Source: a bacterium (lineage in GTDB: Bacteria; Bacteroidota; Ignavibacteria; Kapaibacteriales; UBA2268). Taken from it: DNA of 64,000 nt. Below the pieces are notes generated by a model. It had not been told where the DNA came from. It was given only the letters and a program-made list of their open reading frames with translations, and made no database searches. The DNA lies in contig JANJTB010000006.1 of the NCBI GenBank assembly GCA_024711295.1, forward strand, positions 1 to 64,000, in the 5' to 3' direction. Of this stretch, positions 42,122-58,182 are shown piece by piece. Position 1 is the stretch's first letter; every line of letters starts with the position of its first letter. The position numbers were made by a program, and so were the translations under genes.

Positions 42122-42808
42122 ATGATAGAATTACTTAGTCATATAAATATTCGTGTTAATCAGAAGGTATTTCTGAAAGATCCATCGAGCACCGAGCTTG
42201 GCAAAAGCATCATTATCGAAAGCATTAAGCTTATTGAAGAATGTGGATTTGAAGAATTTACTTTTAAAAAACTAGCAACAAAAATTAATACTACGGAAAG
42301 TTCTGTTTACAGGTATTTTGCGAATAAGCACAGATTATTAATTTATTTGCTTTCTTGGTATTGGTCATGGCTTGAGTATAAGTTAGTATTTAATACAGCA
42401 AATGTAAGTGATGCATCTTTAAAGCTGAAAATTGCCATTGAATCTTTAATTGATGAAGATGAGAATTTTATGATTAATGGATATATTTGTTTAAATTCAC
42501 TACTTAAAATTGCAATATCTGAATCTGTTAAGTCGTTCTTAACACGTGAAATTGATAATCAGAATGAAGAAGGTTTTTTTTCATCTTACATTAACTTATG
42601 TGCAAGACTAAGTAAAATAATAAATGAAGTTAATCCTGATTACAGTTACTCGAATTCTTTAGTAGCAGTGATTTTTGAAGGTATTCATCAGCAGAAGTTC
42701 TTTTCTTTGCATATAAAATCTCATTCAGACTTTGAGGTTTGGGAAAAAAATAAAATGAAAGATTTTTTTATAAATTTAGCAATTAAAACAATCAAATCAA
42801 ATGGCTGA
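42122..42808 (+). CDS. TetR-family transcriptional regulator
   Basis: A 228-residue protein. The N-terminal helix-turn-helix is in 'FTFKKLATKINTTESSVYRY' and the following 'FANKHRLL', as in TetR regulators. The C-terminal ligand-binding domain is not recognisable. The stop overlaps the ABC exporter start by 8 bp, so it probably controls its own exporter operon (TetR, ABC, HlyD, TolC) in response to a ligand. Confidence 0.85.
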   Translation: MIELLSHINIRVNQKVFLKDPSSTELGKSIIIESIKLIEECGFEEFTFKKLATKINTTESSVYRYFANKHRLLIYLLSWYWSWLEYKLVFNTANVSDASLKLKIAIESLIDEDENFMINGYICLNSLLKIAISESVKSFLTREIDNQNEEGFFSSYINLCARLSKIINEVNPDYSYSNSLVAVIFEGIHQQKFFSLHIKSHSDFEVWEKNKMKDFFINLAIKTIKSNG

Positions 42809-44537
42809 AACTTATAATATTACTAAACCTGTTTCAAGATTTTTAAGCCTACTCAAAACAGATAAGCAAGATGTTATAAATATATATATCTATGCTGTTT
42901 TTAACGGTTTGGTAAATTTATCACTGCCGTTAGGTATTCAAGCAATAATTAATCTGATTACAGGTGGACAAATCTCAACATCATGGATTATGCTGATACT
43001 TTTTGTGTTATCAGGTGTATTGTTTTCGGGTGTTTTACAATTATTGCAACTATACACAACAGAAAATCTACAACAGAAACTTTTTACTAGGAACGCTTTT
43101 GATTTTACTTACAGAATCCCAAGAATAAAACTTGATAATGTTGATCAGCTTTATATACCTGAGATAGTAAACAGGTTTTTTGATATCACCGCAGTTCAAA
43201 AAGGCTTGTCAAAAATCTTAATTGATTTTTCTTCTGCATCTTTACAGGCTTTCTTTGGATTGATTTTATTATCATTATATCATCCATTTTTTATAATTTA
43301 TAGTCTGCTATTGATAATTTTAGTTATCCTGATAATAAGATTTACTGGTGCAAAAGGCTTGTTAACAAGTCTTAAAGAATCAACATATAAATATCAAGTC
43401 GTGCATTGGCTGGAAGAGCTTGCACGAACTTTGGATACATTTAAGCTTGCAGGCAAAACTGATCTCCCTTACCACAAAACAGATGAAGCTGTAACCGGTT
43501 ACTTAAAAAATCGAAAAGAGCATTTTAAGGTTTTGGTTGTTCAATCATCCGTATTGATTTTGTTTAAATTGTTCATAACTGCAGGTTTGCTGGTTCTTGG
43601 GGGTTTGCTGGTGATTGACCAAGAAATGAATTTGGGGCAGTTTGTTGCTGCAGAGATCATTATTTTGTTGGTTATTACATCGGTGGAGAAAATTATTCTT
43701 AGCATGGAGACAATCTATGATGTTCTTACATCAACTGAAAAAGTTGGAATGATATCTGACCTTGAACTTGAGAATATGAGTGGGAAAAATGACAAAATCC
43801 AAGATATGAATGAAGGTGTTGGAATCACGCTGAGAGACGTCAGTTATAAATTTAATGAATCAAAATTTTATGCAGTAAAAAATGTTAATTTGGATATACA
43901 GCCAAACGAATTCGTATGTATCTGGGGCTTTGAAGGGTCTGGAAAGTCAATGCTTCTGAAAATAATAAGCGGAATATATGAAAATTATGAAGGAGTGTTG
44001 TTGTTTAACGGAATCCCGGCAAATAATTATCATAAGGATAGCCTTAGGTCAATTGTAAGTCATGGACTAACTAAAGAAGACACAATTTTCCATGGTACCT
44101 TGCTCGAGAATATCTCCTTAGGTAGAGCATCAGTATCTTTTGGGGATGTAAAGAAAATTGCAGATGTGTTCGGATTAATTGATTATTATGAAGTATTTCC
44201 AAAAGGGTACGACACAATATTATATCCCGAAGGAAAACAAATACCCAAGGGAATAATAATGAAAATTCTACTGGCACGTACCTTGGTGACTAAACCGAAA
44301 TTATTGATTATCGAAGATGCAATATCAAGGATTAATAAACAGGACCAGGAAGCATTTTTGAATTATGTAATGGATAAAAATCATGGAAGCACGGTGATTG
44401 TTGTCTCAAATGATAAGAATATTGCACAAAGATGCGATAAAATTGTGATTATGGAAAATGGTGAAATATCGCATATTGCACCATTCTCAGAAATAATTCA
44501 GGATGAAAGGTTTAAATATTTATTTATTAAAGGTTGA
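42801..44537 (+). CDS. ABC exporter of type I secretion type with a degenerate nucleotide-binding domain
   Basis: A 578-residue half-transporter. Its membrane domain spans residues about 25-320 with 5-6 helices and has no N-terminal C39 peptidase domain. The ATPase domain is at about 340-578. Walker A GFEGSGKS (376-383) is intact, but other motifs deviate. The Q-loop position has H421. The LSGGQ signature is replaced by IPKGI (481-485). Walker B reads LLIIED (501-506) instead of LLILDE. The H-loop has N537 instead of His. It forms an operon with an HlyD-type adaptor and a TolC-type channel. ATP hydrolysis may be weak or regulated. Confidence 0.88.
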   Translation: MAETYNITKPVSRFLSLLKTDKQDVINIYIYAVFNGLVNLSLPLGIQAIINLITGGQISTSWIMLILFVLSGVLFSGVLQLLQLYTTENLQQKLFTRNAFDFTYRIPRIKLDNVDQLYIPEIVNRFFDITAVQKGLSKILIDFSSASLQAFFGLILLSLYHPFFIIYSLLLIILVILIIRFTGAKGLLTSLKESTYKYQVVHWLEELARTLDTFKLAGKTDLPYHKTDEAVTGYLKNRKEHFKVLVVQSSVLILFKLFITAGLLVLGGLLVIDQEMNLGQFVAAEIIILLVITSVEKIILSMETIYDVLTSTEKVGMISDLELENMSGKNDKIQDMNEGVGITLRDVSYKFNESKFYAVKNVNLDIQPNEFVCIWGFEGSGKSMLLKIISGIYENYEGVLLFNGIPANNYHKDSLRSIVSHGLTKEDTIFHGTLLENISLGRASVSFGDVKKIADVFGLIDYYEVFPKGYDTILYPEGKQIPKGIIMKILLARTLVTKPKLLIIEDAISRINKQDQEAFLNYVMDKNHGSTVIVVSNDKNIAQRCDKIVIMENGEISHIAPFSEIIQDERFKYLFIKG

Positions 44538-44544
44538 GGTTAGA

Positions 44545-45933
44545 ATGGCTATACATTGCGGAGACCTTCACGAAAAGATAGAAATAAATAAATATAAATC
44601 ATTTTCTATGCTTAAAAGCCATGCAATTTCAAAAGTTGTGAGCAGACTATTTCTGTTTGTTTTCATTGTATTTGTTGTCATTTTGTTTTTACCATGGACA
44701 CAGAACTTAAGAGTAAACGGATATATGACGACATTATATCCTGAGCAAAAACCTCAAACAATTAATACAATAATTGGGGGAAAAATTGCTAAATGGTACG
44801 TCCGTGAAGGGCAATTAGTTCGAAAGGGTGACACTATTGTTCAAATTACAGAAGTAAAGGATGAATATTTTGATCCAAATTTACTAAGTAGGGTTAAAGA
44901 GCAAATAGATGCTAAAAACCAATCAATAACATCTTATAGAGAAAAGGCTGATGCTCTAGAAAAACAAATTGAAGCATTAAGAAATACAAGAGACTTAAAA
45001 TTATCGCAGACAAAAAATTACTATCAGCAATCAATCCTTAAAGTACAATCGGATAGCATTGATTTTGTTGCTGCTGATATTAATTTTAAAATATCTAAAG
45101 AGCAATTACTTAGGTTTGAAGATCTTTATAAACAAGGACTTAAATCACTTACAGAGCTTGAACAAAGAAAACTTCGGTTTCAAGATGCCAACGCAAAATT
45201 TATCTCTGCTGAGAATAAGTTTCGAAATTCAAAAAACGATATGGCAAATGCAAACATGGAGATTAATTCTCAACTTAATCAATACAATGAAAAGCTAGCT
45301 AAAGCTGAATCGGACAAGTGGGAAGCACTTTCAAATCTATATACTGCCGAAGCAGAATTATCAAAGTTAAGGATTATGTTTCAGAATTACGAAACCAGAA
45401 GTGGTCTATATTTTATAACGGCTCCTCAGGATGGTTATATTACAAAGTCAATCAAAACCGGTATAGGAGAAATAGTAAAAGAGGGTGAGGAAATAGTAAC
45501 CATTGCACCATACGACTATCAGGCAGCTGTTGAAATGTACATTAATCCTATGGATATACCATTAATTAAAAGTGGACAGAATGTTAGAATTGTTTTTGAT
45601 GGTTGGCCCTCTATCATTTTTTCCGGATGGCCTCAATTGTCAATTGGGACATTTGCCGGTAAGGTAATCTCATTAGATTATTATATTAGCGAAAATGGCA
45701 AATATAGAGCATTAATTGGTCCTGACCCAAACGCTGAGCCATGGCCTGATGTCCTGAGAGTTGGTTCGGGAGCTATCGGTATGATTTTACTGAATGATGT
45801 TCCAATATGGTACGAAACATGGCGTCAGCTCAATGGTTTTCCACCCGATTATTATTCAAAAGAAGAAGAGAAGATGGAAAAAGTAAAAAAAGAAGCTAAT
45901 GGTGATAAGAATTATTTAAAGTCATTAAAATAA
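44545..45933 (+). CDS. HlyD-family membrane fusion protein
   Basis: A periplasmic adaptor of about 462 residues. It has one N-terminal membrane helix ('FLFVFIVFVVILFLPWT'), a lipoyl/barrel-sandwich half motif ('IGGKIAKWYVREGQLVRKGD' region), a long coiled-coil hairpin (about residues 130-280) and the second lipoyl half near 'ITAPQDGYITKSI'. The frame is open from 44503, inside the ABC gene, but the ATG at 44545 has a GAGG box 7 bases upstream and starts just after the ABC stop. It bridges the ABC exporter and the TolC-like channel. Confidence 0.88.
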   Translation: MAIHCGDLHEKIEINKYKSFSMLKSHAISKVVSRLFLFVFIVFVVILFLPWTQNLRVNGYMTTLYPEQKPQTINTIIGGKIAKWYVREGQLVRKGDTIVQITEVKDEYFDPNLLSRVKEQIDAKNQSITSYREKADALEKQIEALRNTRDLKLSQTKNYYQQSILKVQSDSIDFVAADINFKISKEQLLRFEDLYKQGLKSLTELEQRKLRFQDANAKFISAENKFRNSKNDMANANMEINSQLNQYNEKLAKAESDKWEALSNLYTAEAELSKLRIMFQNYETRSGLYFITAPQDGYITKSIKTGIGEIVKEGEEIVTIAPYDYQAAVEMYINPMDIPLIKSGQNVRIVFDGWPSIIFSGWPQLSIGTFAGKVISLDYYISENGKYRALIGPDPNAEPWPDVLRVGSGAIGMILLNDVPIWYETWRQLNGFPPDYYSKEEEKMEKVKKEANGDKNYLKSLK

Positions 45934-45950
45934 AAAAATATTAGAATATA

Positions 45951-47369
45951 TTGAAATTAAGAATCAAAATATTATTTTTATTGTTGCTGTATATTTCATG
46001 TAATTCTCGGTTAATATCAGAGGAAACAGTACTAACTGAATCAGATTTTCTAAAGTTAATTGCAAACAATCATCCTGTTGCAAAAATGGCTCAAATTGCT
46101 GTTAAGAAAGGAAATCAAGAAGTCAGAAGGGCTGCCGGTATGTTCGACCCTGAATTATCTGCTCAATATTCAACTAAAAATTATGATAACAAGTCATATT
46201 ATGATAAATTATTGGGTGGTTTGACTATTCCATCATGGTATGGACCAGACTTTATTCTGTCTTATGAATCTGCTGCCGGAAATTATATTAATCCTGAAAA
46301 TAATTTACCTAATAATGGATTAGTGTCGGCCGGAATCAATCTTCCATTAGGGCAGGGTTTGTTTATTGATAAAAGGAGAGCTGCATACAAACAGTCCGAA
46401 ATATTCGAAAAGATAAGTGAAGTTGAGCAAATCAGGATTTTATCAGATTTATACCTGGAAGCAACGAATCAATACTGGGAATGGGCTGCAAGTTATAACA
46501 AGGTTAAAATAACAGAAACAGCCCTCAATGTCACTAAAAATAGATTTTCTGCAATCAAACAGGCATTTATTCAGGGCGATATAGCTGCAATAGATACGCT
46601 TGAAGCTTATTTACAGTTGCTTAATTTGGAAATAAATTATCAAAGTGCAAAAAATGACTATTTTAACCAGTCAATGATGCTGTCAACATTCCTGTGGAAT
46701 GAAAATCAAATGCCCTTGGAGCTTTCTTCAACCACTATTCCGCAAATAAGCTCAATCTTTGAAACACCTGATTTTGGAATTTTTGAGAACTATAAAAAAG
46801 ATATTGATTCATTGGTATCTGTGCATCCTGAAGTTACTGTTTATGATTTAAAAATTGAACAACTGGATGTTGAGAGGGATCTAAAACTTGATTTACTTAA
46901 ACCAAAGCTAAATTTAAAATACAATTTTTTAAATCAAGCACTTAATCCTCTAAATTCTTCATTTGAACTCAATACAAACAACAACTTCAAGTTTGGAATT
47001 GATTTCAATATGCCTTTATTTTTAAGGACTGAAAGAAGTGAGCTTGAGTTAGCAAATTTAAAGCTTCTTGAAACTGAATTAGAGCGAAAAAATAAAACCC
47101 TCCAACTTAAATACAAAGCTATTACCTCACTAAATGAGCTCGAAATTTTAATTAACCAATACAAATTCTTCTTTGATGCTGTTAACAGCTACCAAATATT
47201 ATTCGAAACTGAGAAGATTAAATTTGATATTGGCGAAAGTTCTCAATTCTTGATAATTTCTCGCGAAAATTCCCTACTCAATGCAAAAATAAAGCAAATT
47301 GAACTATATAGTAAAATATTGTCTAAGTTTGCTTCAGTAAAATGGAGTCTTGGTATAATAGCTAAATAA
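45951..47369 (+). CDS. TolC-family outer-membrane efflux protein
   Basis: A 472-residue protein with a signal peptide after a TTG start at 45951 (MKLRIKILFLLLLYISC...). Two internally similar helical repeats with 'NLEINYQSAKNDYFNQ' and 'RSELELANLKLLETELE' type coiled segments and 'GINLPLGQGLF' strands are typical of TolC/OEP proteins. It completes the tripartite exporter. The Cys near the signal peptide end could be lipidated, but no strict lipobox is visible. Confidence 0.85.
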   Translation: MKLRIKILFLLLLYISCNSRLISEETVLTESDFLKLIANNHPVAKMAQIAVKKGNQEVRRAAGMFDPELSAQYSTKNYDNKSYYDKLLGGLTIPSWYGPDFILSYESAAGNYINPENNLPNNGLVSAGINLPLGQGLFIDKRRAAYKQSEIFEKISEVEQIRILSDLYLEATNQYWEWAASYNKVKITETALNVTKNRFSAIKQAFIQGDIAAIDTLEAYLQLLNLEINYQSAKNDYFNQSMMLSTFLWNENQMPLELSSTTIPQISSIFETPDFGIFENYKKDIDSLVSVHPEVTVYDLKIEQLDVERDLKLDLLKPKLNLKYNFLNQALNPLNSSFELNTNNNFKFGIDFNMPLFLRTERSELELANLKLLETELERKNKTLQLKYKAITSLNELEILINQYKFFFDAVNSYQILFETEKIKFDIGESSQFLIISRENSLLNAKIKQIELYSKILSKFASVKWSLGIIAK

Positions 47370-47493: not shown

Positions 47494-48603
47494 ATGAAGA
47501 TCAAAAAAATAATTGCGAAAGATATAAAAGAAGGAAAAAGAAGAGTTTTAGAAGAGCTTGGCGAGGATGCTGTAATACTCTCAAATAGAGCTGTTAAGGA
47601 TGCTGACGGTTCGGATGCTGTAGAAATAGTTGCTGCTTTAGACGAAAATTCCAACAAACTCAAAACAGCAATGATCAAAGAGATAACGGACAACACTACT
47701 CAAAATATATCTAAAACGAATAAGATAAATATACCTCACAACAACGAAATTTTACTTCAGGAAATTGACAATCTAAAACTTATGCTTCTCGAAATAAATG
47801 AAAGTATTAAGTATCGGAACACATCATCAATGTCGCCAGTATATGCAAAACTGTATAAAAAAATGCGAACACTTGATATTAATGATGATATTGCCTTGAA
47901 AGTTATTAACAGAATATCAGGATTGGGAAATTTGAAAGATTATGATGAAGTACTTTTCGAAGCTAGGAAAATACTTTTAGAAAATATTGAAATTGACAAA
48001 ACAATACAGAAAGGGACAAAAACAAAAATTATTCTGTTTACCGGTACCACCGGTAGTGGCAAGACGGCCTCTTTAGTTAAATTAGCAATTATCAGCAAGA
48101 TTGTACAAAATGCAAATTCTCTAATTATATCTGCTGATACTTACAAAGTTGGAGCCGCTGAACAATTAGAAACCTATGCTTCTATAGCGTCAATTCAATT
48201 CAAAGCAGCATATACTAACGAAGATTTAGCAAATATTATTCAAGAGAATTTGACAAAAGATTTTATATTTATTGATACAACAGGATTCTCTCAAAAAGAT
48301 ACTGAACAACTAAATCAGTTAAATGAGATAATTAAACTGGCTAAACCAGATTATATTTATCTAACCATACCTGCTACAATTTCTGAATTACACGCAAATT
48401 CAATTTTCATGGCATTGAGAAATATGACTATTGATAGTGTTATAATAACAAAAACTGATGAGTCTGAGTCAATTGGAAGTCTGATTAATATCATTAGAAA
48501 TTACAAACTTCCGATTTCTTATATTACAAATGGAATTAAGATTCCTGAAGATATTCTTCCTGCTGACAGAGTAATATTAGGTAAGTTGTGTTTGAATAAT
48601 TGA
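47494..48603 (+). CDS. flhF: Flagellar biosynthesis GTPase FlhF (SRP-type)
   Basis: A 369-residue SIMIBI GTPase. The G domain shows P-loop GTTGSGKTASLVKLA, 'SADTYKVGAAEQLETYA', 'FIDTTGFSQKD' and 'ITKTDES', all diagnostic for FlhF. 'PISYITNGIKIPEDI' is near the C-terminus. FlhF sets the location and number of polar flagella and pairs with FlhG. A TATATTTG box at 47477-47484 lies 10 bases before the ATG, without a clear -33 element. It heads a nine-gene operon. No flagellar structural gene is in the window. Confidence 0.92.
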   Translation: MKIKKIIAKDIKEGKRRVLEELGEDAVILSNRAVKDADGSDAVEIVAALDENSNKLKTAMIKEITDNTTQNISKTNKINIPHNNEILLQEIDNLKLMLLEINESIKYRNTSSMSPVYAKLYKKMRTLDINDDIALKVINRISGLGNLKDYDEVLFEARKILLENIEIDKTIQKGTKTKIILFTGTTGSGKTASLVKLAIISKIVQNANSLIISADTYKVGAAEQLETYASIASIQFKAAYTNEDLANIIQENLTKDFIFIDTTGFSQKDTEQLNQLNEIIKLAKPDYIYLTIPATISELHANSIFMALRNMTIDSVIITKTDESESIGSLINIIRNYKLPISYITNGIKIPEDILPADRVILGKLCLNN

Positions 48604-49412
48604 TGGACAAATTTTCTCAAAATAATGATAAAAAAAATCCATTTACTATTACATTATGTAGTGGTAAAGGAGGAGTAGGTACTAGTTTCTTAACGGCAAA
48701 TCTTGCTTCAGCTGTTTCGAAACTTGGTAATAAGGTATTAATACTTGATTCCGTTCTTGACTTACCTAATCAACATATTTTATTTGGTGTCGAGCCACCG
48801 GTGAGACTGAGTTCAGTACTTTCCGGAAAAGTAAATGTTGATTCAGCTTTGTACAAAATAGATTACAATATTTCGTTATTAGTTGACTCACCAATAGAGA
48901 TTGATGATGATAATGACCATATACTGTCATTAAAAGAGGTTGTTAATCAACTCAAATCAGAATGTGAAAAAGAGTTTTTATTTATTGATGTACAATCTGG
49001 TATATCAGAAGAATTGATAGCGCTTTCGAAATTATCCGATTTAGTATTGATAGTCATTACTGACGAACCTACGTCATTAATTGATGCTTATGGCTTACTT
49101 AAAATCCTTAGAAATTATGTTGATATCAGTAAAATTGCATTAATCGTAAACAATGTAATAGATGATGAGGACGCAGGTGAACTATCTCATAAATTTAACT
49201 TGGCATCAACCCAGTTCTTAGGATTAAAAATTGATGTTTTAGGTTTTGTACCTTATAGTCGGAATGTTAGATATTCCATTCAAAGACAAGAAATATTGGT
49301 AAATAATTTTGAAGATGATGAGGCTTCGTCAGCCATTTTGAATATATCAAAAAAAATTCATTCAAAATATTTTGTTTCGTCGTATAATACTAAAATGATT
49401 GAAGTTTTATAA
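48603..49412 (+). CDS. flhG: FlhG/MinD-like ATPase with a modified P-loop
   Basis: A 269-residue ParA/MinD family protein; the start ATG overlaps the flhF stop (TGATG). The deviant Walker A reads SGKGGVGTS. The signature Lys is present, but the P-loop Lys that normally precedes Thr/Ser is Thr (residue 27). Switch-like 'FIDVQSGISEELIALSKLSD' and the FlhG-typical 'TDEPTSLIDAYGLLKIL' are kept. A basic, amphipathic C-terminus that could bind membrane is present. It normally limits flagellar number with FlhF. Confidence 0.88.
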   Translation: MDKFSQNNDKKNPFTITLCSGKGGVGTSFLTANLASAVSKLGNKVLILDSVLDLPNQHILFGVEPPVRLSSVLSGKVNVDSALYKIDYNISLLVDSPIEIDDDNDHILSLKEVVNQLKSECEKEFLFIDVQSGISEELIALSKLSDLVLIVITDEPTSLIDAYGLLKILRNYVDISKIALIVNNVIDDEDAGELSHKFNLASTQFLGLKIDVLGFVPYSRNVRYSIQRQEILVNNFEDDEASSAILNISKKIHSKYFVSSYNTKMIEVL

Positions 49413-49427
49413 AAGAGAGTTTTTATT

Positions 49428-49952
49428 ATGGCAAAGAAAAGTAATGAAAAACCCACAGATAACGAAAAGAAGTATCAAAAGAAAGTTGCTCAGGAAAAGA
49501 AGAAGCTTGAAAGAATAATTAGTACTCCACCTAAAGCTGTTCTAATGTTATCTTTGATTGTAGGTTTACTGACTTTTACTTTCACCTTTTTCGGAAATCT
49601 AAAAGATCCAATATCTGCCATATTACAATCTTTTATAGCTTTTTCTATTGCATTTATTGGTATTGGATTTAGTGTTTCGCTTTATTTTTATTATAAAAGT
49701 GAAGCTTTAAAAAAAGAATATCATCAAATGGTATTGAATGAAAAACAAGATAGGGAGCAGGCTGAGCAACAGAGAATAAGAAATGAAATAAGTGAGCTTG
49801 AAGCAATTGAGCGTGAACTCGCTGATAAAAGGAGTAAGTCATCTGTAAATCGATCAGGTAATGATGAGCAGGCTCCAAGATATTCAAGAAATACTTTATC
49901 TGATGAAGAAGCATACTTGGATGAAGTATTGAACAGCAACTTTACACCTTAA
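49428..49952 (+). CDS. Hypothetical two-helix membrane protein between flhG and fliA
   Basis: A 174-residue protein with a highly charged N-terminus. Two membrane helices lie at about 36-56 and 68-90. A Glu/Lys/Gln-rich coiled coil covers about 95-135, followed by a polar tail. I do not recognise the family. The layout (both ends cytoplasmic, a coiled coil after the hairpin) suits a membrane scaffold. Tight spacing (15 bp on each side) places it in the FlhF/FlhG/FliA unit. Confidence 0.6.
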   Translation: MAKKSNEKPTDNEKKYQKKVAQEKKKLERIISTPPKAVLMLSLIVGLLTFTFTFFGNLKDPISAILQSFIAFSIAFIGIGFSVSLYFYYKSEALKKEYHQMVLNEKQDREQAEQQRIRNEISELEAIERELADKRSKSSVNRSGNDEQAPRYSRNTLSDEEAYLDEVLNSNFTP

Positions 49953-49967
49953 TAAACTCAGGAATTG

Positions 49968-50750
49968 ATGCAAACAAAAAATGCTGATATTGAAAGTGTT
50001 TGGAAATTATTTAAAGCAAATGCAACTGTGATTAATAAACAGTTGCTTGTTGTTCATTATATTAATTTAGTAAAGTACACAATCAGCAAAATGGCATTGC
50101 CAATAAACACAATTCTCGAAGAAGACGATTTTATAAATTTCGGGGTTATTGGTCTCAGCGAAGCAATTGACAGGTTCGAACCTGAAAGAGGTTTTAAATT
50201 CGAGTCTTATGCAATCAAGAGGATTCGTGGAAAAATTCAGGATGAAATGAGAAAATTAGACTGGATGTCACGAACAGCCCGCAAAAGAGCTAATGAATTT
50301 AAATCAATTTCAGATAGTTTAGAACTAAAAAGGGATTCCGGTGCCAGCGAAAGCGAAGTGCTCAAAGAGCTAAATATTAGTCCTGAGCAGTATAGAAATT
50401 ATTTGCTAGCTGCATCAGATGCCAAATCTTCTATACCAATAACAGACAGTTCTCTAAAGAGCATAAACGATGATGATGAAGAGGTTAATTTTGTTGAAGA
50501 GATTCCTGATGATGTTCCTGATTTCTTAACTGACATTATCGAAGATGAAAAGCAGAAGTTACTCATAAGATTGGTAAGCAATCTGAAAGAAAATAAAAAG
50601 TTAGTACTTACACTTTATTATTTTGAAAACCTGAATTTCAAGCAAATAGGTCAAGTGCTTGGTGTATCTGAAGGAAGAATTTCACAAATTCATTCTGAAA
50701 CTATCAAGGATTTGAAACATCAGTTGGGCAGGTACGATTATGCTTACTAA
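49968..50750 (+). CDS. fliA: Sigma-28 family RNA polymerase sigma factor FliA (WhiG-like)
   Basis: A 260-residue sigma factor. Region 2 'EEDDFINFGVIGLSEAIDRF' with 'GFKFESYAIKRIRGKIQDEM' is typical of FliA/WhiG, and region 3 includes 'DWMSRTARKRANEF'. Region 4 ends with 'YFENLNFKQIGQVLGVSEGR'. The frame includes an upstream TTG at 49965, but the ATG at 49968 is the better start, preceded by AGGA. It would direct late flagellar or motility genes. The last 11 bp overlap the HDOD gene. Confidence 0.93.
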   Translation: MQTKNADIESVWKLFKANATVINKQLLVVHYINLVKYTISKMALPINTILEEDDFINFGVIGLSEAIDRFEPERGFKFESYAIKRIRGKIQDEMRKLDWMSRTARKRANEFKSISDSLELKRDSGASESEVLKELNISPEQYRNYLLAASDAKSSIPITDSSLKSINDDDEEVNFVEEIPDDVPDFLTDIIEDEKQKLLIRLVSNLKENKKLVLTLYYFENLNFKQIGQVLGVSEGRISQIHSETIKDLKHQLGRYDYAY

Positions 50751-51681
50751 CAGGGTTAAAACAAAACTTGAATCTATTAGAGATTTACCCACAATACCGA
50801 TTGTAATTTCAGAAGTATTGGCAGCTATAGATAATCCAAAGTCAAGTGCTGCAAGCCTAGCGAAGATAATCGAAAAGGACCAGGCTCTCACCGCAAGAGT
50901 GCTTAGAATTGCCAATTCACCATTTTATGGTTATACACGCCAAATATCAACAATTGATTTGGCTATCGTAATTATGGGATTTAATACACTGAAGGAAATT
51001 GTTCTTAGTATTGTAATTCAAAGATTTTTCTCGAAAGTAAATACAAAACTCTTTAATATCAGAGATTTTTGGCAATATGGTTTGTTCTGTGGGTCAACTG
51101 CCAGATTGTTATCACGCAAATTAGGCTACAAAATTGCCGGTGAAGCCTTTGTGGCAGGTCTGATGCATGATATCGGAATAATTATTATTGCTGAGTATTT
51201 TACACCGAAGTTTAAAGAAATCATAAAATTTGCTAATGAAAACAATGTTTCATTAATTGATGCTGAACAAGCAATAATGGAATGTACTCATGCTGAAATC
51301 GGAGCTTGGATAGCAGATAAATGGAATTTGCCTGATAAAATGGTAACAGCAATCAGAAATCATCATATTAATTACGCTTTTTTTGCCAAAAACAATGATT
51401 TTGATGCTTACTCAGAATCAGATACATTAATTAGAGATATTGATCAACCTTTGACAGCAATAGTTTCATTAGCTGAATGGTTTGCTGATTTGTTGGGTTT
51501 GTCGAAATGGATGGGTAGTCTTATCAAGCCGGACTATTATCTTTCTACTGAAGTTTTTGGAGAATTAAATAGTGAAGATATTCTTGACCCTGAAAGTTCC
51601 TTATTTGCACTTAAAGCAGAATTAATGGAAGAGTTTGAAAAAGCGAATATATTCATTGAGTTACAGGTGAGTCATGCTTGA
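50740..51681 (+). CDS. HDOD domain signalling protein
   Basis: A 313-residue protein. The HDOD core (about 15-215) contains 'LPTIPIVISEVLAAIDNPKS', 'IEKDQALTARVLRIANSPFY' and 'GLMHDIGI'. HDOD proteins act in chemotaxis, motility and signalling without a proven catalytic activity. The gene overlaps fliA by 11 bp and the pseudokinase gene by 8 bp, so the three are probably co-translated and may act in one pathway. Confidence 0.88.
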   Translation: MLTNRVKTKLESIRDLPTIPIVISEVLAAIDNPKSSAASLAKIIEKDQALTARVLRIANSPFYGYTRQISTIDLAIVIMGFNTLKEIVLSIVIQRFFSKVNTKLFNIRDFWQYGLFCGSTARLLSRKLGYKIAGEAFVAGLMHDIGIIIIAEYFTPKFKEIIKFANENNVSLIDAEQAIMECTHAEIGAWIADKWNLPDKMVTAIRNHHINYAFFAKNNDFDAYSESDTLIRDIDQPLTAIVSLAEWFADLLGLSKWMGSLIKPDYYLSTEVFGELNSEDILDPESSLFALKAELMEEFEKANIFIELQVSHA

Positions 51682-52885
51682 AAACCAAAATAATCCATCA
51701 AATGACATTTTTGATCAGTTAGGTGGTTTTTTTATTAAAATCATTGCTGCGAGAAGTAATGAAGATATTAATGAGTTATTAACTCTTTTCATTTCAAAAA
51801 AAGTTAAAATTCTGGAATCTGTTATTTTGAACACGGAATCAGTAGCTTCAGGCTTTCTGGTTGATATAAGTAATAATAAAGATTCTGAACTTAATAAAAG
51901 ATTGACTTACCTGTTGGAAGAAGGAATTATTGATTGGGCTTTAAAAAGTAAAGAACCTCAGATGATAATGGATTTGCAATCTCAATTAAGTGGAAATTTA
52001 TTCAACATTCTTTTGATTCCCTTGGTTTATGACAATAATTCAATTGGTATTTACATTGCATTGACAGATTCTGCAAAGGAGAATGTTGACTCACCTTTGC
52101 TTAATGATATCAGAAATTTCTCATTCTTATCAGCGCTAGTATTGAGTAATATTGCCTTACGTAATTCTCTGATTACTTTAGAAAACAAACATCTTGAATT
52201 AAATGAGAGATTTATTAATATTCTGCCTCTTACATCAATAGGTGAAATATCACTTACGGTACTCAAAGAAGTGTCATTGCCTTTGCAAATAATTGACTCT
52301 AACATTGACTTAATCGAAAATGGGGTGGGCAACCTTAGTAGAAGATTAGAAATTATTAAACAACAGATAAAATCTATAACAGAAATAATAAATTTACTTG
52401 ATGAAATATCTGCAGAAGCAAAGAAATCTGCACCTGAAGAAATTGATATTGGCAGTATGCTTGCAGAAACATTAAGTATTTTGAGCTCTCAGCTTAAAAG
52501 TGCAGGAACAAAAGTCTATCTCGACAGTTCTGTTGAAAAGCCGATTACTAAGGGAATCAAAACCCAACTGGAATTTATAATGATTCAAATTATCAATTTT
52601 CTGATTACAAATTCCAATGATACTGATAGCATATACATCAATATCAGCTCTCCTAATCAAAGAATTGTTGTTATTACTATCCGGGAAGAAACAAAGGGCA
52701 TAGAATTTGATAACTATGAATCATTATTAGAGTTCATCAAAGGAAGCTCCGTTTTGAAAGATATGTACCAAAACTTTCTTTCATTCAGACATATACTCAA
52801 GTTGCATAAAGGAAAGCTTGAGTGTTCAGCAGTTAGTGATGACGGCACTGTTTTCAGAATTTATTTACCCAAGCTGAGTGAATAA
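51674..52885 (+). CDS. GAF-like/histidine pseudokinase protein
   Basis: A 403-residue soluble protein. Residues about 15-165 resemble a GAF domain. A helical dimerisation segment 'TSIGEISLTVLKEVSLPLQI' (187-206) aligns with the histidine-kinase H-box, but the phospho-acceptor position is K198. A HATPase-like domain follows (about 255-400), with 'FIMIQIINFLITNSND' as N-box and 'DDGTVFRIYLPK' at the end. The DxGxG loop is absent ('TIREETKGIEFD'). It therefore looks like a pseudokinase or sensor scaffold that cannot autophosphorylate in the usual way. It is coupled to the HDOD gene. Confidence 0.75.
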   Translation: MLENQNNPSNDIFDQLGGFFIKIIAARSNEDINELLTLFISKKVKILESVILNTESVASGFLVDISNNKDSELNKRLTYLLEEGIIDWALKSKEPQMIMDLQSQLSGNLFNILLIPLVYDNNSIGIYIALTDSAKENVDSPLLNDIRNFSFLSALVLSNIALRNSLITLENKHLELNERFINILPLTSIGEISLTVLKEVSLPLQIIDSNIDLIENGVGNLSRRLEIIKQQIKSITEIINLLDEISAEAKKSAPEEIDIGSMLAETLSILSSQLKSAGTKVYLDSSVEKPITKGIKTQLEFIMIQIINFLITNSNDTDSIYINISSPNQRIVVITIREETKGIEFDNYESLLEFIKGSSVLKDMYQNFLSFRHILKLHKGKLECSAVSDDGTVFRIYLPKLSE

Positions 52886-54356
52886 AAAATTGAATAGAAC
52901 ATTAAAGCACATATTGTATGTTTTCATGATTTTTTGCATAGTTCCAGACTCAATTAATGCAAAAGATATTTTTTCTATTGATATCAATCCCTTGAATCGA
53001 GCAATAATTCACTTTGACACAATTCCCTTAAAGTATAGTTCAAATTTGTCTGATGACAAGAAAAGAATTTACATAAATGTCGGTAACTATACTTTCAAAG
53101 ACAACATAAAGCAGAAATCAGGACTTGGAATAATTAATGATATTTATTTGACGAAATCTGATTCAGGAACTGTTGTCAACATCAGAACAAAAGAAAAACG
53201 TGGATATACAATCGTCAATTATCCTTTTAGTTCAAGGTTGGCTGTTGAGGTATTCTCCTGGGAAAATTTAACCAAAGAAGAGGAAGCATACAGAACTGCC
53301 TTGTTAGCATTCGAAGATGGTATATATACTGAAGCATTAAGAGAATTTTATTTCTTAAGTAAGAAAAATTATATTCCCTCAGTATATTTTTTGGGTATGA
53401 TATACCTTAAAAGCAAGAATTTTTCACAGGCAGCTACCGCTTTTAGATTTGTAATACAAAATGATTCCAACAACATTGATGCACTAGCTGGGTATTCAGT
53501 TGCTGCAATGAATTTGGGCGAGAATAATTACCAGCAATACCTCAACTCATTTTTTGCAAAGTGTAATTGTAATAATTATATTAACTCCGAGATAATTGAC
53601 TTTGTTCCGGATTCTACATTTATGGATGTTAGCCATTTAGTTTTGAATATTGCTGATACTAGTAAAGTTCAAAATGATTCTACTTCTTTAGCAAATTCTG
53701 AATTAAAAATTCACACAACAAAGATATCAAAAAATCAAAAAAATACGATAAATGTGCTCGGGGAGTTATACACTTATTTATTTTACATCTTAGGTGCAAT
53801 TGGTATCTTGATACTCTATTTGTACCTAAAATGGAGAAACCAAAAATCAATAAAATTGAAAAGTAAAATTAAAAATGAATTTACCAGTGAGTTAAAAACT
53901 GCTCAGTCAGGTATAAACTCCGCTCAAATAATTAATGCCTATAAAAAGCAAGAATATATCAAAACAGATAATGATAGCATGAAAACTGTTGATGAAGGTT
54001 CATCAAATGAAAAATCCAGCAATATAGTAAGTGATGAAAAAATAATTAAACTCGAAAGTATTATTGAAAATATCACTGGGAAACCGGTTTCGGTTATTAA
54101 AAACCAGGCTACCATACCCGGAGTTAATGCTAAATTGGAGCTTGCAATGCATCTGGCTGATGAGCAAAGAAAAATTAAAGCTCAGAATATTGACGCATTG
54201 AAAACCTCCTTAATTCCGAATGACAAAAAGAAATTAGCTGAAGTATCAAAGAAGTTAGGAATCGAAAAAGGTGGGCTTGAAACAAAAGCTGCTTTGGAGA
54301 AAATTCTTAAAGATAAGGACAAGCTAAAGAAATTAAACGATAAATTCGGTATATAA
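52878..54356 (+). CDS. AMIN-like/TPR periplasmic protein with one membrane helix and cytoplasmic tail
   Basis: A 492-residue protein. It has a signal peptide (about 8-28), a beta-rich AMIN-like domain (30-127), two or more TPR units (about 130-225), a polar linker, one membrane helix (297-318) and a charged cytoplasmic tail of about 170 residues (319-492). This layout, a periplasmic module, a single helix and a cytoplasmic tail, parallels FimV/HubP polar landmark proteins that work with FlhF and FlhG, but no LysM or FimV domain is visible. The start is a GTG at 52878, with a TTG at 52890 as an alternative. Confidence 0.65.
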   Translation: MNKKLNRTLKHILYVFMIFCIVPDSINAKDIFSIDINPLNRAIIHFDTIPLKYSSNLSDDKKRIYINVGNYTFKDNIKQKSGLGIINDIYLTKSDSGTVVNIRTKEKRGYTIVNYPFSSRLAVEVFSWENLTKEEEAYRTALLAFEDGIYTEALREFYFLSKKNYIPSVYFLGMIYLKSKNFSQAATAFRFVIQNDSNNIDALAGYSVAAMNLGENNYQQYLNSFFAKCNCNNYINSEIIDFVPDSTFMDVSHLVLNIADTSKVQNDSTSLANSELKIHTTKISKNQKNTINVLGELYTYLFYILGAIGILILYLYLKWRNQKSIKLKSKIKNEFTSELKTAQSGINSAQIINAYKKQEYIKTDNDSMKTVDEGSSNEKSSNIVSDEKIIKLESIIENITGKPVSVIKNQATIPGVNAKLELAMHLADEQRKIKAQNIDALKTSLIPNDKKKLAEVSKKLGIEKGGLETKAALEKILKDKDKLKKLNDKFGI

Positions 54357-54368
54357 TCTTTATAGTGC

Positions 54369-54399
54369 TTGTAAACAGCGAAATAATTTATTATTTTTG
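54369..54399 (+). promoter_or_regulatory. Predicted Bacteroidota-type promoter of the CTD miniprotein/PorV-like pair
   Basis: TTG (54369-54371) is followed by a 20-bp spacer and TATTTTTG (54392-54399). The ATG at 54405 is only 5 bases after the -7 box, so the transcript would be leaderless or nearly so. Confidence 0.6.
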
Positions 54400-54404
54400 T
54401 TGTT

Positions 54405-54839
54405 ATGGAACTTAAGATAATCAAAAACATATTAATTCTTATCGCTACTTTAGTTTTTTTGACTACGCCATCATTATTATTTTCAATAGAAAATTCCAAT
54501 ACTCAACATAACAAACTACTTGGCACAGAAATTGTAAATTATCAGAAGAGTCTGTTTGTAGTTAATGCCGATACAGTAACAAATAACAAAATCACTTCTG
54601 TGTGGTACACTACAACAGAGCTCAATGTTAAGATAATTCAGGTTCTTAAACAGCAGGAGATTACAATTACAGTGTATAATATGCTTGGAAAAGAGATTTT
54701 AGAGGTATTCAAAGGTACTACCGGTAACAATGCTGAGGAGACTTACTCTAAATCTTCAAATCTTCCGAATGGAATATACATTTGTGTAATGCAAGGCAAG
54801 AGCTTCAGAAGTTCCGAAAAGTTTATTATTTCGAGGTAG
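54405..54839 (+). CDS. Small secreted protein consisting mainly of a T9SS type A-like C-terminal sorting domain
   Basis: A 144-residue protein. A signal peptide (about 8-27) is followed by a linker of about 35 residues. The final 80 residues match the Por-secretion C-terminal domain pattern: 'ITVYNMLGKEILEVFKG', 'LPNGIYICVMQGK' and 'SSEKFIISR' at the very end. Normally this domain follows a large passenger; here there is essentially none. The PorV-like gene starts 2 bp after its stop. It may be a T9SS client fragment, a CTD-only regulator, or a decaying gene. Confidence 0.75.
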   Translation: MELKIIKNILILIATLVFLTTPSLLFSIENSNTQHNKLLGTEIVNYQKSLFVVNADTVTNNKITSVWYTTTELNVKIIQVLKQQEITITVYNMLGKEILEVFKGTTGNNAEETYSKSSNLPNGIYICVMQGKSFRSSEKFIISR

Positions 54840-54841
54840 CA

Positions 54842-55891
54842 TTGAAAAAAGAAATACTAATTTATTCGAAGTGTTTAATAATGATTGCACTATTGGCTAT
54901 TATTGGACACACTGATTTAAATTCTCAAAACTATTATGGTGGTTACTCTGAATCCTGGCTATCAAGAAATATAGGTGCTCGTCCATTGGCAATGGGTGGA
55001 GTCTACAGCGCTATAGTCAACGAACCAAACGGAATATTTTATAATCCTGCCGGAAGCAGTTTTATGTCGGATGTACCATCGTTTGCAACTTCAGTAAGCT
55101 CTATGGGATTAAACAGAACTTTTGCTTCATTGGCTTGGGCTCAGGAAATAATTCCTCAATTTGGATTAGGGTTTGGTATCAATAATCTCAATTCCGGAAG
55201 TTTCTTAAGCAGAAGTATTAATGGTGCACCTGTTCGTGACGTAAATAATAATCAAATATCAGCACTTCTGGCAGCTTCATATAGACTTGAATTTATAAGT
55301 ATGGGAGCATCTGTAAAATACCTTAACAACAGTTTAAGCGGAGCAAATATTTCTTCTACCGGAATAGCATTTGACTTAGGTGTAAAAATGAATGTAGCTG
55401 ACTTATTCAGCTTTGGCGTTGCTATGAATAATATTGGTGGCAGTATGAAATGGAATACATCATCACAAATATCCGAAAATATTCCATATACACTCAGAAC
55501 CGGTGTTGCTGTAGAGTTTGGACTAAATGAAGAAACAAAAGTAGCTCGTACAACAATTACTGGTGAAGAACAAACAGTTGTTATTCCTCCTACTCAGTAT
55601 ATTTTGTTGGGAATGGATGCTGTAATGAACCAGTTTGACAAAACACCTTCCTGGATAGTCGGAACGGAGGTAGTTTTTCATGAATTTTTTGCTTTAAGAG
55701 GCGGTCTCTCAATATATGGTGATAATGAAGGTAAACCTGAATTTTTACCAATGAATAATTGGGGAGCAGGTATAAGTTTAAGGCCCCAACTTGATATGGA
55801 TTTTTTGATGCAAATTGATTATTCTGTATCCAAAGAGTTTATTACAACAGATAGAATTGCCCATCATCTAACACTAATAATTGAACTCTAA
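54842..55891 (+). CDS. PorV/PorQ-family outer-membrane protein (UPF0164-like)
   Basis: A protein of about 349 residues. The frame is open from 54782, but the TTG at 54842 has a GAGG box and follows the preceding stop directly. The signal peptide ends near 'DLNSQ'. The barrel begins with 'WLSRNIGARPLAMGGVYSAI' and 'NPAGSSFM', the diagnostic PorV/PorQ N-terminal pattern, and continues as beta strands to the C-terminus. PorV shuttles T9SS cargo from the translocon to the PorU attachment complex. Whether this is PorV itself or a paralogue is uncertain. Its stop interlocks with the convergent channel gene (CTAA at 55888-55891). Confidence 0.82.
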   Translation: MKKEILIYSKCLIMIALLAIIGHTDLNSQNYYGGYSESWLSRNIGARPLAMGGVYSAIVNEPNGIFYNPAGSSFMSDVPSFATSVSSMGLNRTFASLAWAQEIIPQFGLGFGINNLNSGSFLSRSINGAPVRDVNNNQISALLAASYRLEFISMGASVKYLNNSLSGANISSTGIAFDLGVKMNVADLFSFGVAMNNIGGSMKWNTSSQISENIPYTLRTGVAVEFGLNEETKVARTTITGEEQTVVIPPTQYILLGMDAVMNQFDKTPSWIVGTEVVFHEFFALRGGLSIYGDNEGKPEFLPMNNWGAGISLRPQLDMDFLMQIDYSVSKEFITTDRIAHHLTLIIEL

Positions 55892-58182
55892 TTCTTGTAA
55901 TCAGTATTTATGGCAACAACATAAACTTTCATACCATCTTCAACTGTAAAAACATCAGATTTTTGAGGATTTACCACCGCTTTCCCTGCGCTTGTCAGGT
56001 AGCCCAAAGCTATTTCATTTCTACGCGAGCAAGCTTCAGTAACTGCATAAAAATCTATCTTTGAATTAATTTCAAAATATTTATTCAATTCCCGTACATA
56101 TATTTCGCTTCCATAATTGGAAAAAAGCTCGTTATATACTTCAAATAATCGCTTATCTTCTGAAATTTGCGCTATGTAAGCACTAACAATATCAGGACCT
56201 ACAATGAAATCTCCCGCCATTTGGGCAGAAACCAGCTTTTCGTTTTCTCTTATCAATAATTCTGCGGCTAAATTAAAATTGCATTGCAACTCTTTTTGTA
56301 TTAATCTCAAATTGATTATTTTTAATATTGTGCTTGAGTCACAATCATTAAAATTTGATATTTCATTATAATTGCTTAATACAATAATGTGCTGATATTT
56401 CGAAATGTTGTATTTGATTAAATCTTTTCTTAAGCTTGTCTTACCAGTCTGATAGCTAATATTGCTGAAATTGTTTTCGGATACTATTTCGCTAATTGCA
56501 TCAAAAAAATCTTGTGAATCAGTAATAATATGAATATTGAGCTTAGAAAGCCCTGATGAAACTAATTCATTTAATATAAGTTCACCCTTATGATTCCAAC
56601 CTATGATTAAAAGATTATTCTCATTAGATTCTGAATTATCTTTTAATGCAATCTTATTAAAGTAGTTATCAATTTTATCTTTTTTTCTTTTTATTTTGAT
56701 AGTTGAATCATCTTCGCTTAATATAATAACCTGATCATCTTTTTCAAAAATTGTATTGTAATCAGGATTAATTTTTATACTTCCATCTTTTGTCCAGATG
56801 CCAATTGGCACACATGAATCATAAATAAATAATGATTCGTAGAAGGATTTACCAATTAACTTTGGTTCGTCAGCTATATAAATTTCACTTCCATCAAATC
56901 CAATTATCTGCTCGTAAATTTTGGATAAACCACTATTTATAGCTGCCTGAGATATTATTTTAGCAACCATTTCCTCGGTAGATATTATTATTCCATTATT
57001 GCCGATAAGCTCTTTAGCCATTTTAGCATTCTCGTTATCATCCAGATCTGCAATTACATTAAAATGTTCATCTGAATTGTGCTTACTTTCGTTCCAGGCA
57101 TGATTAAGCGCAAGTATTTGCTTTATAGTATTCACATCATCGTGTTTCCCCTGCTCATCCTGGGATAAAATAATTACTGATTTTGCAAACTCAGGCCTCA
57201 CAACTTTTAAGTAATCTAAATTTGTTGGTATGCCTTCTCTTATGGAAAGCTTAACATGTTTAAAATCGGGTATATGAAAACTAATTTCGTCATTCATTTC
57301 TTGTTTGCTCTTATTGGCAAGAATAACTATTGAAGCCCTTGACTCACTTTGATTAGCTATCAAAAGGTTATCTAAAATCGCAAAAATCTGTTGTGACCAA
57401 CCCAAAATTAATGTATGACCGGATTTATATACAGTTTGGAATGACTTGTTTTCTTCTAGCTTAGATTCACCAATTTCTGAAGTTAGGATGCCAATAAACA
57501 AGTTTAGGAAAATCATCGCTGCCAACAAAACAAAACTAATAAAATAGGTAACAACAACAGCATCGCTCATACCTTCATCAAGTGCTTTTTTGATTCCGCT
57601 GCCTTCATCATATACCCAAGACCACCCTTCGAATGATACAAAGAAAAGTGTTTTCATTGAACTAAGTATCGAACCAAATGAATCAGGTTCGTACTTGCCA
57701 AATAAGTCAGTACCTATTACTGCAAATATATAAAACTGCATTAACAGTAAGATAATAACATAAGACATCGAAGGGATAGACCTCAATAGAGATTGTATTA
57801 TTATCTTGAGATTGTGTACTCTCTCGAAAAGTTTCAACATTCGTAGTACACGGGCAAGCCTTAGAATTACAAAAAAATTGGTATGAAATTCAGGAACAAA
57901 GTACGGTATAAAACAAACTGCTACTATTATGAAATCAAATATAAACCAACCATCTGTTAATAACCTAAGTGGTTTGTTATAATCAGCTATAATTCTGACG
58001 ACCAATTCGAATACAAAAATCCACAATACTAAATTGTCGAGCAATTTCAACAAGCTGTTGTGCTTCGATACTATTTCGGGATAAGTTTCTAACCCTACTA
58101 AAATTCCGGCAAATATTATTACGCCAAAAATTATATTCTCAAACCACCTTGAATCTCGAATGGTTATTATCTTATCAATCAA
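55888..58182 (-). CDS. Voltage-gated cation channel fused to CASTOR/POLLUX-type double RCK domains
   Basis: A 764-residue protein. Residues 15-235 form a six-helix channel. The S4 helix carries R108, R111, R114, K117 and R121. The pore region has T178-L-F-F-V-S-F-E185-G-W187, resembling NaChBac/NaV filters (TLESW type) rather than the K+ filter TVGYG. S6 is near 215-234. The cytoplasmic half has two Rossmann-like modules starting 'HTLILGWSQQIFAIL' (256) and 'NLLIIGWNHKGE' (523). Segments such as 'GFDGSEIYI', 'DIVSAYIAQISEDKRLFEVY' and 'ELFSNYGSEIYVRE' resemble plant CASTOR/POLLUX/DMI1 channels. It probably conducts Na+ or Ca2+ and is gated by voltage plus a cytoplasmic ligand, by inference. 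Confidence 0.9.
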   Translation of the reverse strand: MIDKIITIRDSRWFENIIFGVIIFAGILVGLETYPEIVSKHNSLLKLLDNLVLWIFVFELVVRIIADYNKPLRLLTDGWFIFDFIIVAVCFIPYFVPEFHTNFFVILRLARVLRMLKLFERVHNLKIIIQSLLRSIPSMSYVIILLLMQFYIFAVIGTDLFGKYEPDSFGSILSSMKTLFFVSFEGWSWVYDEGSGIKKALDEGMSDAVVVTYFISFVLLAAMIFLNLFIGILTSEIGESKLEENKSFQTVYKSGHTLILGWSQQIFAILDNLLIANQSESRASIVILANKSKQEMNDEISFHIPDFKHVKLSIREGIPTNLDYLKVVRPEFAKSVIILSQDEQGKHDDVNTIKQILALNHAWNESKHNSDEHFNVIADLDDNENAKMAKELIGNNGIIISTEEMVAKIISQAAINSGLSKIYEQIIGFDGSEIYIADEPKLIGKSFYESLFIYDSCVPIGIWTKDGSIKINPDYNTIFEKDDQVIILSEDDSTIKIKRKKDKIDNYFNKIALKDNSESNENNLLIIGWNHKGELILNELVSSGLSKLNIHIITDSQDFFDAISEIVSENNFSNISYQTGKTSLRKDLIKYNISKYQHIIVLSNYNEISNFNDCDSSTILKIINLRLIQKELQCNFNLAAELLIRENEKLVSAQMAGDFIVGPDIVSAYIAQISEDKRLFEVYNELFSNYGSEIYVRELNKYFEINSKIDFYAVTEACSRRNEIALGYLTSAGKAVVNPQKSDVFTVEDGMKVYVVAINTDYKN

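Follow-up and report, generated by a model that had tools for sequence, protein, structure and literature searches.

The flhF operon and its cell-envelope genes

The window analysed here, which comprises the first 64,000 nt of contig JANJTB010000006.1 (assembly GCA_024711295.1; Bacteroidota, Kapaibacteriales), comes from an order of mostly uncultured Bacteroidota. It contains an operon in which the usual set of flhF, flhG and fliA is extended by three genes for the cell envelope. These three genes, hereafter the trio, are the last of the operon and encode a TPR protein, a small protein with a C-terminal domain (CTD) of the type IX secretion system (T9SS), and a PorV-like outer-membrane barrel. 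The operon comprises nine genes on the + strand at 47494-55891, in the order flhF, flhG, two-helix membrane gene, fliA, HDOD, kinase-like, TPR, CTD protein and PorV/PorQ-family barrel. The spacings are -4, 15, 12, -11, -8, -8, 48 and 2 nt, the last of which assumes TTG 54842 as the start of the PorV-like gene. The original prediction of nine overlapping or closely spaced genes on one strand is borne out, with all nine open reading frames (ORFs) present and a largest gap of 48 nt. The features are listed below.

47494..48603, + strand: flhF, signal recognition particle (SRP)-type GTPase that retains its N-terminal B/FliG-binding region (TIGR03499 model positions 1-286)
48600..49412, + strand: flhG, MinD-type ATPase (ParA/MinD models; 3´ of flhF in relatives)
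49428..49952, + strand: small protein with two transmembrane (TM) helices and a charged tail (alignment of 37 members, hydropathy)
49965..50750, + strand: fliA, sigma-28 (TIGR02479, FliA_WhiG, 196.4 bits versus a cut-off of 189.6)
50740..51681, + strand: HDOD-domain protein (PF08668, E=7.6e-62)
51674..52885, + strand: degenerate histidine kinase, with Lys for the phospho-acceptor His and the N-box lost (alignment, motif table)
52878..54356, + strand: single-pass TPR protein (alignment of 13 members, fragment model, hydropathy)
54369..54399, + strand: Bacteroidota-type promoter match TTG(54369)-N20-TATTTTTG(54392-54399), inside the operon in the 48-bp gap
54405..54839, + strand: 144-aa secreted CTD protein with a signal peptide, about 45 aa and a type A T9SS C-terminal domain (TIGR04183)
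54842..55891, + strand: PorV/PorQ-family outer-membrane barrel (NF033709, TTG start)

The window is part of a 290-kb contig (C38), and the genome comprises 3.45 Mb in 40 contigs. Outside the window, FlhA (C25, 875 bits), FlgH (C26, 146 bits) and flagellin-type genes (two at C32, one at C9 and one at C26; four Flagellin_N matches above the cut-off) are present, and the genome is therefore a flagellated one. The earlier remark that flagellar structural genes are missing thus holds for the window but not for the genome. No sigma-28 promoter was found within 400 bp 5´ of the flagellin genes, a result that says little because the pattern used is proteobacterial.

The CTD protein exceeds the cut-off of TIGR04183 (Por_Secre_tail; 35.3 versus 23 bits), and all 12 aligned CTD proteins match this model. 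Most of those from family f1 contain little besides the sorting domain after the signal peptide (order, class, family and genus codes, namely f1, f9, f13, g3, g25 and g51 where given, are those of the search tool). The genome encodes SprA, and the CTD protein is a predicted T9SS type A cargo. The sole PDB match of the CTD profile is the T9SS cargo tail in 8glk, which is weak (E=0.023); 8glk is also listed for the PorV chain. A PorZ-like propeller was considered in L066 and L071, where some 350 additional residues precede the CTD, in view of the PorZ-PorQ resemblance; it was dropped, as Pfam yielded only a Sortilin match (E=0.25) in one of the two.

The barrel exceeds the family cut-off of NF033709 (PorV_fam; 105.6 versus 90 bits), 12 of 12 aligned members match this model at E<=0.001, and the barrel profile matches PorV (6h3i_F, E=1.1e-8). 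The window protein stays below both equivalog cut-offs, for PorV (NF033710, 43.7 versus 250 bits) and for PorQ (NF033711, 56.5 versus 220 bits). Membership in the PorV/PorQ family therefore stands, but the former label of a PorV shuttle is too precise because the PorV equivalog cut-off is not reached. The listed ORF start at 54782 was rejected, as it carries the reading frame too far 5´, into the CTD gene, and the first residue of the signal peptide is encoded at 54842.

The 48-nt gap between the TPR and CTD genes is the sole larger gap in the operon, and the internal promoter placed there by the original prediction was recovered as a full match to what we take to be the Bacteroidota-type consensus. 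Nine full matches lie on the + strand of the window, including this site, and a full match also occurs in the congener L036, the sole case among 31 relative loci examined. No terminator-like site was found on the + strand between 47200 and 56200. The promoter match permits separate expression in this genus, and the CTD and PorV proteins are standard T9SS-type parts. Both points favour an alternative that sees the trio as a unit for adhesion or the cell surface, produced during swimming and only co-expressed with motility, which uses the T9SS and has no physical link to FlhF.

The TPR protein comprises a signal peptide, a periplasmic β domain (approximately aa 29-126), a TPR region (approximately aa 133-230), a TM helix (approximately aa 297-315) and a cytoplasmic tail. 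In the alignment of 13 members, a basic stretch follows the TM helix, and a C-terminal helical motif of the A-K-K-L-G-I-E-x-G type is conserved. The predicted model of residues 29-240 (pLDDT 85, pTM 0.74) contains nine strands followed by six helices, and the six helices match TPR domains in the PDB; a model of the whole protein (pLDDT 44) was not used. The β domain is AMIN-like by eye, and a Pfam AMIN match was obtained in one of the 13 members (E=0.0055). No AMIN-domain entry was found among the PDB matches listed for the fragment model, whose lists are filled by the TPR part. Neither LysM nor the FimV C-terminal domain was matched in the TPR protein (Pfam and NCBIfam scans to E=0.1), and DUF2802 was not matched in any of the nine operon proteins (Pfam). 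This places the TPR protein outside the HubP/FimV and FipA families. A helix-turn-helix-like tail was also considered and dropped, as weak Sigma70_r4/HTH matches appeared in only one of 10 members.

Co-occurrence of the trio with flagella

Profile searches covered 123 genomes of the order, 79 of which were classed as flagellated by the presence of FlhA or FlgH and 44 as flagella-less. FlhA was found in 78 genomes, FlgH in 73 and the PorV-like barrel (E<=1e-25) in 72. TPR matches at E<=0.001 occurred in 90 genomes; the 73 that reached 60 bits or more were counted, and the 17 whose best match was at most 26 bits were dropped. The TPR or PorV-like gene is present in 74 of 79 flagellated genomes and in none of the 44 genomes without flagella (Fisher p 4e-28, with no correction for phylogeny). 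SprA, a T9SS translocon gene, is present in 122 of the 123 genomes. In both retention and loss, the trio thus follows flagella rather than the T9SS. The proposal that FlhF-type positioning is tied to T9SS-like surface proteins is supported in part: the co-occurrence stands, in an organism that does have flagella, and a coupling to export or adhesion is conjectural.

A FastTree phylogeny of SprA, which covers 80 of the 123 genomes picked to represent all families, was used in place of a species tree. Seven changes are needed for flagella on this tree and nine for the trio. Across seven independent pairs, the trio changes in the same direction as flagella in 6.7 on average and never in the opposite direction (median two-sided sign p 0.0156). 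An adhesion unit that is merely co-expressed with motility would sometimes be expected to outlive flagella, and its absence from all 44 flagella-less genomes argues against that explanation.

The arrangement flhF-flhG-membrane-fliA-(HDOD)-(HK)-TPR-CTD-PorV, where HK is the histidine kinase-like gene, recurs in several families of the order (for example at L036, L040, L053, L054, L057, L066, L071, L137, L138 and L144). The TPR gene is followed by the PorV-like gene, at most 4 kb away and on the same strand, in 54 of the 71 genomes with both. The original prediction would be undermined if the two halves of the operon never occurred together in relatives; they do co-occur, and the PorV-like gene follows flhF within 12 kb in 24 of the 70 genomes that have both. 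Where the CTD and barrel genes are split from the TPR gene, they remain neighbours (G001, G040, G043, G051 and G058).

Joint loss could also result from passive hitch-hiking, that is, from location beside flagellar genes. The trio lies within the flhF operon in several families, where one deletion removes all of it. However, the flagella losses in genus g51 of f9 and in G028 (g3) are not explained by one deletion, because in the closest relatives the trio and flhF are not linked. The trio is also retained with flagella while located far from flhF on one contig, at 40 kb in G094, 66 kb in G020 and more than 260 kb in G037 and G084. Hitch-hiking was already disfavoured and is very improbable. 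The same unlinked state of the trio in many genomes is a point in favour of the co-expressed adhesion unit. The association between the trio and flagella is strong, and neither linkage nor the T9SS alone explains it; a functional tie between the two in this order is highly probable.

A class-wide sample comprises 341 genomes, of which 144 contain FlhA, including 95 from other orders. The TPR protein was matched at E<=1e-10 in none of these 95 FlhA-bearing genomes. PorV-like matches outside the order reach at most 129.6 bits, compared with at least 186 bits within it for the best match per PorV-bearing genome. Because outside matches are missing or lower, the module is a trait of the order, with one exception in family f13.

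FlhF-derived GTPases and the other operon genes

Five f13 genomes of another order (G125, G135, G144, G153 and G162; completeness 95-100%) contain the TPR gene at 76-86 bits. No FlhA was found in any of the five in the class sample search, where FlhA was the sole flagellar gene searched. In all five genomes, the TPR gene is located 3´ of, and overlaps, an SRP-type GTPase gene. These FlhF-derived GTPases, each beside the TPR gene, are as follows.

L169, 6129-7076: f13 FlhF-derived GTPase
L171, 1-1026: f13 FlhF-derived GTPase
L173, 4765-5730: f13 FlhF-derived GTPase
L174, 6690-7655: f13 FlhF-derived GTPase
L176, 5969-6934: f13 FlhF-derived GTPase

The four that were scanned score higher with FlhF (91-96 bits) than with FtsY (65-74 bits), and in an IQ-TREE phylogeny of NG domains all five group with FlhF, apart from FtsY and Ffh (100/100). 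The L281 protein is FtsY by its place in this tree. All five f13 GTPases lack the first 77-85 FlhF profile positions and begin at 78-86, so that the N-terminal FliG-binding/B region is absent; the TIGR03499 match of the four scanned proteins starts at position 111-116. PMC11236974 describes FlhF as binding HubP through its GTPase (NG) domain and FliG through its N-terminal domain. The loss of the FliG-binding part in f13, with the GTPase and the TPR protein kept, would fit the TPR protein as a HubP-like partner.

Elsewhere in three f13 genomes (L170, L172 and L175), a small CTD protein is encoded beside a PorV-family gene, and a fourth (L177) has a PorV-family gene with no called CTD gene. Directly 5´ of the CTD-PorV pair in L170, a 949-aa protein (1862-4708) has weak FG-GAP-like matches and an FlgD_ig-like C-terminal domain.

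The overlap of the TPR gene with an FlhF-derived GTPase gene in five genomes without FlhA is difficult to reconcile with a mere adhesion unit, which we consider an unlikely explanation, albeit one that deserves weight. The f13 pair also bears on another alternative, in which the trio is not a positioning factor but a structural accessory that the flagellar motor carries at the periplasm and outer membrane, much like the PflA/PflB disks in Campylobacterota. The periplasmic β domain with TPR, the outer-membrane barrel and the joint loss with flagella are compatible with such an accessory. PflB is among the weak TPR matches (9leq_B, E=0.025), and the presence of FlgH implies a normal L-ring to decorate. 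Generic TPR proteins, however, far outscore PflB, and the FlhF-TPR pair persists in f13 without FlhA; a motor accessory is therefore judged to have a low probability.

The flhF product of the window scores 165.8 bits with TIGR03499, below the cut-off of 174.15, with the whole model covered and the full B-N-G architecture present; this cut-off is exceeded in just 24 of the 123 genomes of the order. Two FlhF genes above the cut-off occur in G100 (G100:C51:1093-1887 and G100:C33:230639-231457), one of which lies beside an FlhA piece and may represent contamination. No FlhG-specific model was reached by the flhG product in the model scans.

The hairpin of two helices encoded between flhG and fliA is conserved across 37 aligned members. 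It shares two TM helices and the location between flhG and fliA with FlgV, which passages of PMC10655999 describe as a small two-TM protein of Campylobacterota. Unlike FlgV, the operon's protein has no GFFxG, the motif of FlgV TM1, which was found in none of the 37 aligned members. The two-TM protein is possibly an FlgV counterpart outside Campylobacterota.

The kinase alignment included 34 ORFs, five of which (L048, L150, L042, L142 and L064) were dropped as outside the operon context, leaving 29. The phospho-acceptor His is gone in all 19 kinases of f1, with K, S, Q, N, R, W, D or E instead, and is kept in all 10 operon kinases outside f1. In the relative L067, GAF, HisKA and HATPase are all above their cut-offs. 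Taken together, the lost His in f1 and the intact GAF-HisKA-HATPase kinase of L067 indicate that a GAF-type kinase turned into a pseudokinase at the base of f1. The pseudokinase gene is still retained in the f1 operon. The expectation of motility signalling through this kinase as an ordinary two-component system is unlikely to hold, because the kinase is degenerate. An apparent kinase-TPR fusion in G024 was rejected, as the joined ORF spans an N-filled assembly gap.

A 124-nt gap separates flhF from a TolC-like gene on its 5´ side. This gene ends a three-gene export set on the same strand (ABC transporter, HlyD-like and TolC-like; 42801-47369; names from sequence reading). On the - strand, a gene at 55888-58182 converges on the operon with overlapping stops; sequence reading suggests an ion-channel-like product whose C-terminal part is large and nucleotide-binding.

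A proposed positioning system and its known counterparts

We propose that the locus is a flagellar-positioning operon with three envelope genes, in which the TPR protein would be an FlhF receptor joined to a CTD-barrel pair; on the available sequences, we assign this reading, the best supported of those considered, a probability of approximately one half. The TPR protein would be the membrane partner of FlhF, with a HubP/FipA-like role and no shared domain. Its cytoplasmic tail would hold the GTPase (NG) domain of FlhF, and its periplasmic β and TPR parts would reach the wall or the outer membrane. There, the PorV/PorQ-type barrel would keep the small CTD protein on the cell surface once the T9SS has exported it. 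The trio would thereby label the place of flagellar assembly by FlhF, probably the pole, or make it more stable. Regulation in the cytoplasm may fall to the HDOD protein and the kinase-like protein, the latter of which would now serve as a pseudokinase scaffold in f1. A broader version is tentative and rather doubtful: FlhF here might act in a trans-envelope positioning system that uses type IX secretion, comprising GTPase, TPR receptor, barrel and surface CTD protein, which would be separable from the flagellum and in f13 may place another machine.

Several observations weigh against a receptor role of the TPR protein within such an operon. Five flagellated genomes (G033, G060, G061, G093 and G113) are without both trio markers. 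In G060 and G061, FlhF is present and the operon is cut off before the TPR gene; the absence was considered as a sign of independence from FlhF, an idea that was dropped because both assemblies end inside the operon. G033 and G093 have no FlhF either, and the completeness of G093 and G113 is 78% and 82%. The TPR gene follows flhF within 9 kb in only 27 of 71 genomes; some of the misses are contig ends, and others, such as G094, G020, G037 and G084, reflect true relocation. In some genomes, the CTD and PorV genes lie apart from the TPR gene, and their arrangement there gives no hint of a physical link. The cytoplasmic tails of the f13 TPR proteins show no significant similarity to those of the order (E=0.49). 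Finally, the TPR gene is not strictly flagellar, because it is present without FlhA in f13.

How FlhF finds its site without known landmarks is presented as an open question in a passage of a recent review (PMC12826062). The operon supplies a concrete candidate for an FlhF receptor, and f13 is a natural experiment in which FlhF has lost the part that binds the flagellum and the candidate receptor is kept. Among the papers searched, FlhF appeared with 'type IX secretion' in one unrelated paper, and none contained Bacteroidota, T9SS and 'polar flagell' together. To our knowledge, no link between flagellar positioning and the T9SS has been described earlier. If the proposal is true, the operon would provide the first such link, together with a dedicated type A CTD-barrel pair.

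Polar flagella of gammaproteobacteria are placed by FlhF with HubP/FimV and FipA, and the FipA gene lies near flhFG, as described in PMC11236974 and PMC11620751. The present operon resembles this system, as far as these papers describe it, in combining FlhF and FlhG with a membrane partner, here a candidate. HubP also has a periplasmic domain, one TM helix and a cytoplasmic tail. In contrast to that system, LysM, the FimV C-terminal domain and DUF2802 are not matched here, the TPR is periplasmic, and the candidate partner has a link to a CTD-barrel pair of the T9SS.

A CTD protein gene beside a PorV/PorQ-family barrel gene recalls the T9SS shuttle or anchor pairs (PorV-type A, PorP/SprF-type B and PorQ-PorZ), as these are outlined in the cited sources. 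In Flavobacterium, type A CTDs share one PorV, and type B CTDs are served by PorP/SprF shuttles of their own, according to PMC12618676. Unlike the single PorV for all type A CTDs in that account, the type A CTD here adjoins its own PorV/PorQ-family gene, which is tied to flagella. Such a dedicated type A CTD-barrel pair would be new if the pair works as one unit. PorA of Porphyromonas gingivalis, with its FimH-like domain and its signalling to PorXY-SigP (PMC7712824), is likewise a small CTD protein that does more than serve as cargo, in its case as a surface signal relay. In contrast to PorA as described there, the protein of the operon has almost nothing before its CTD.

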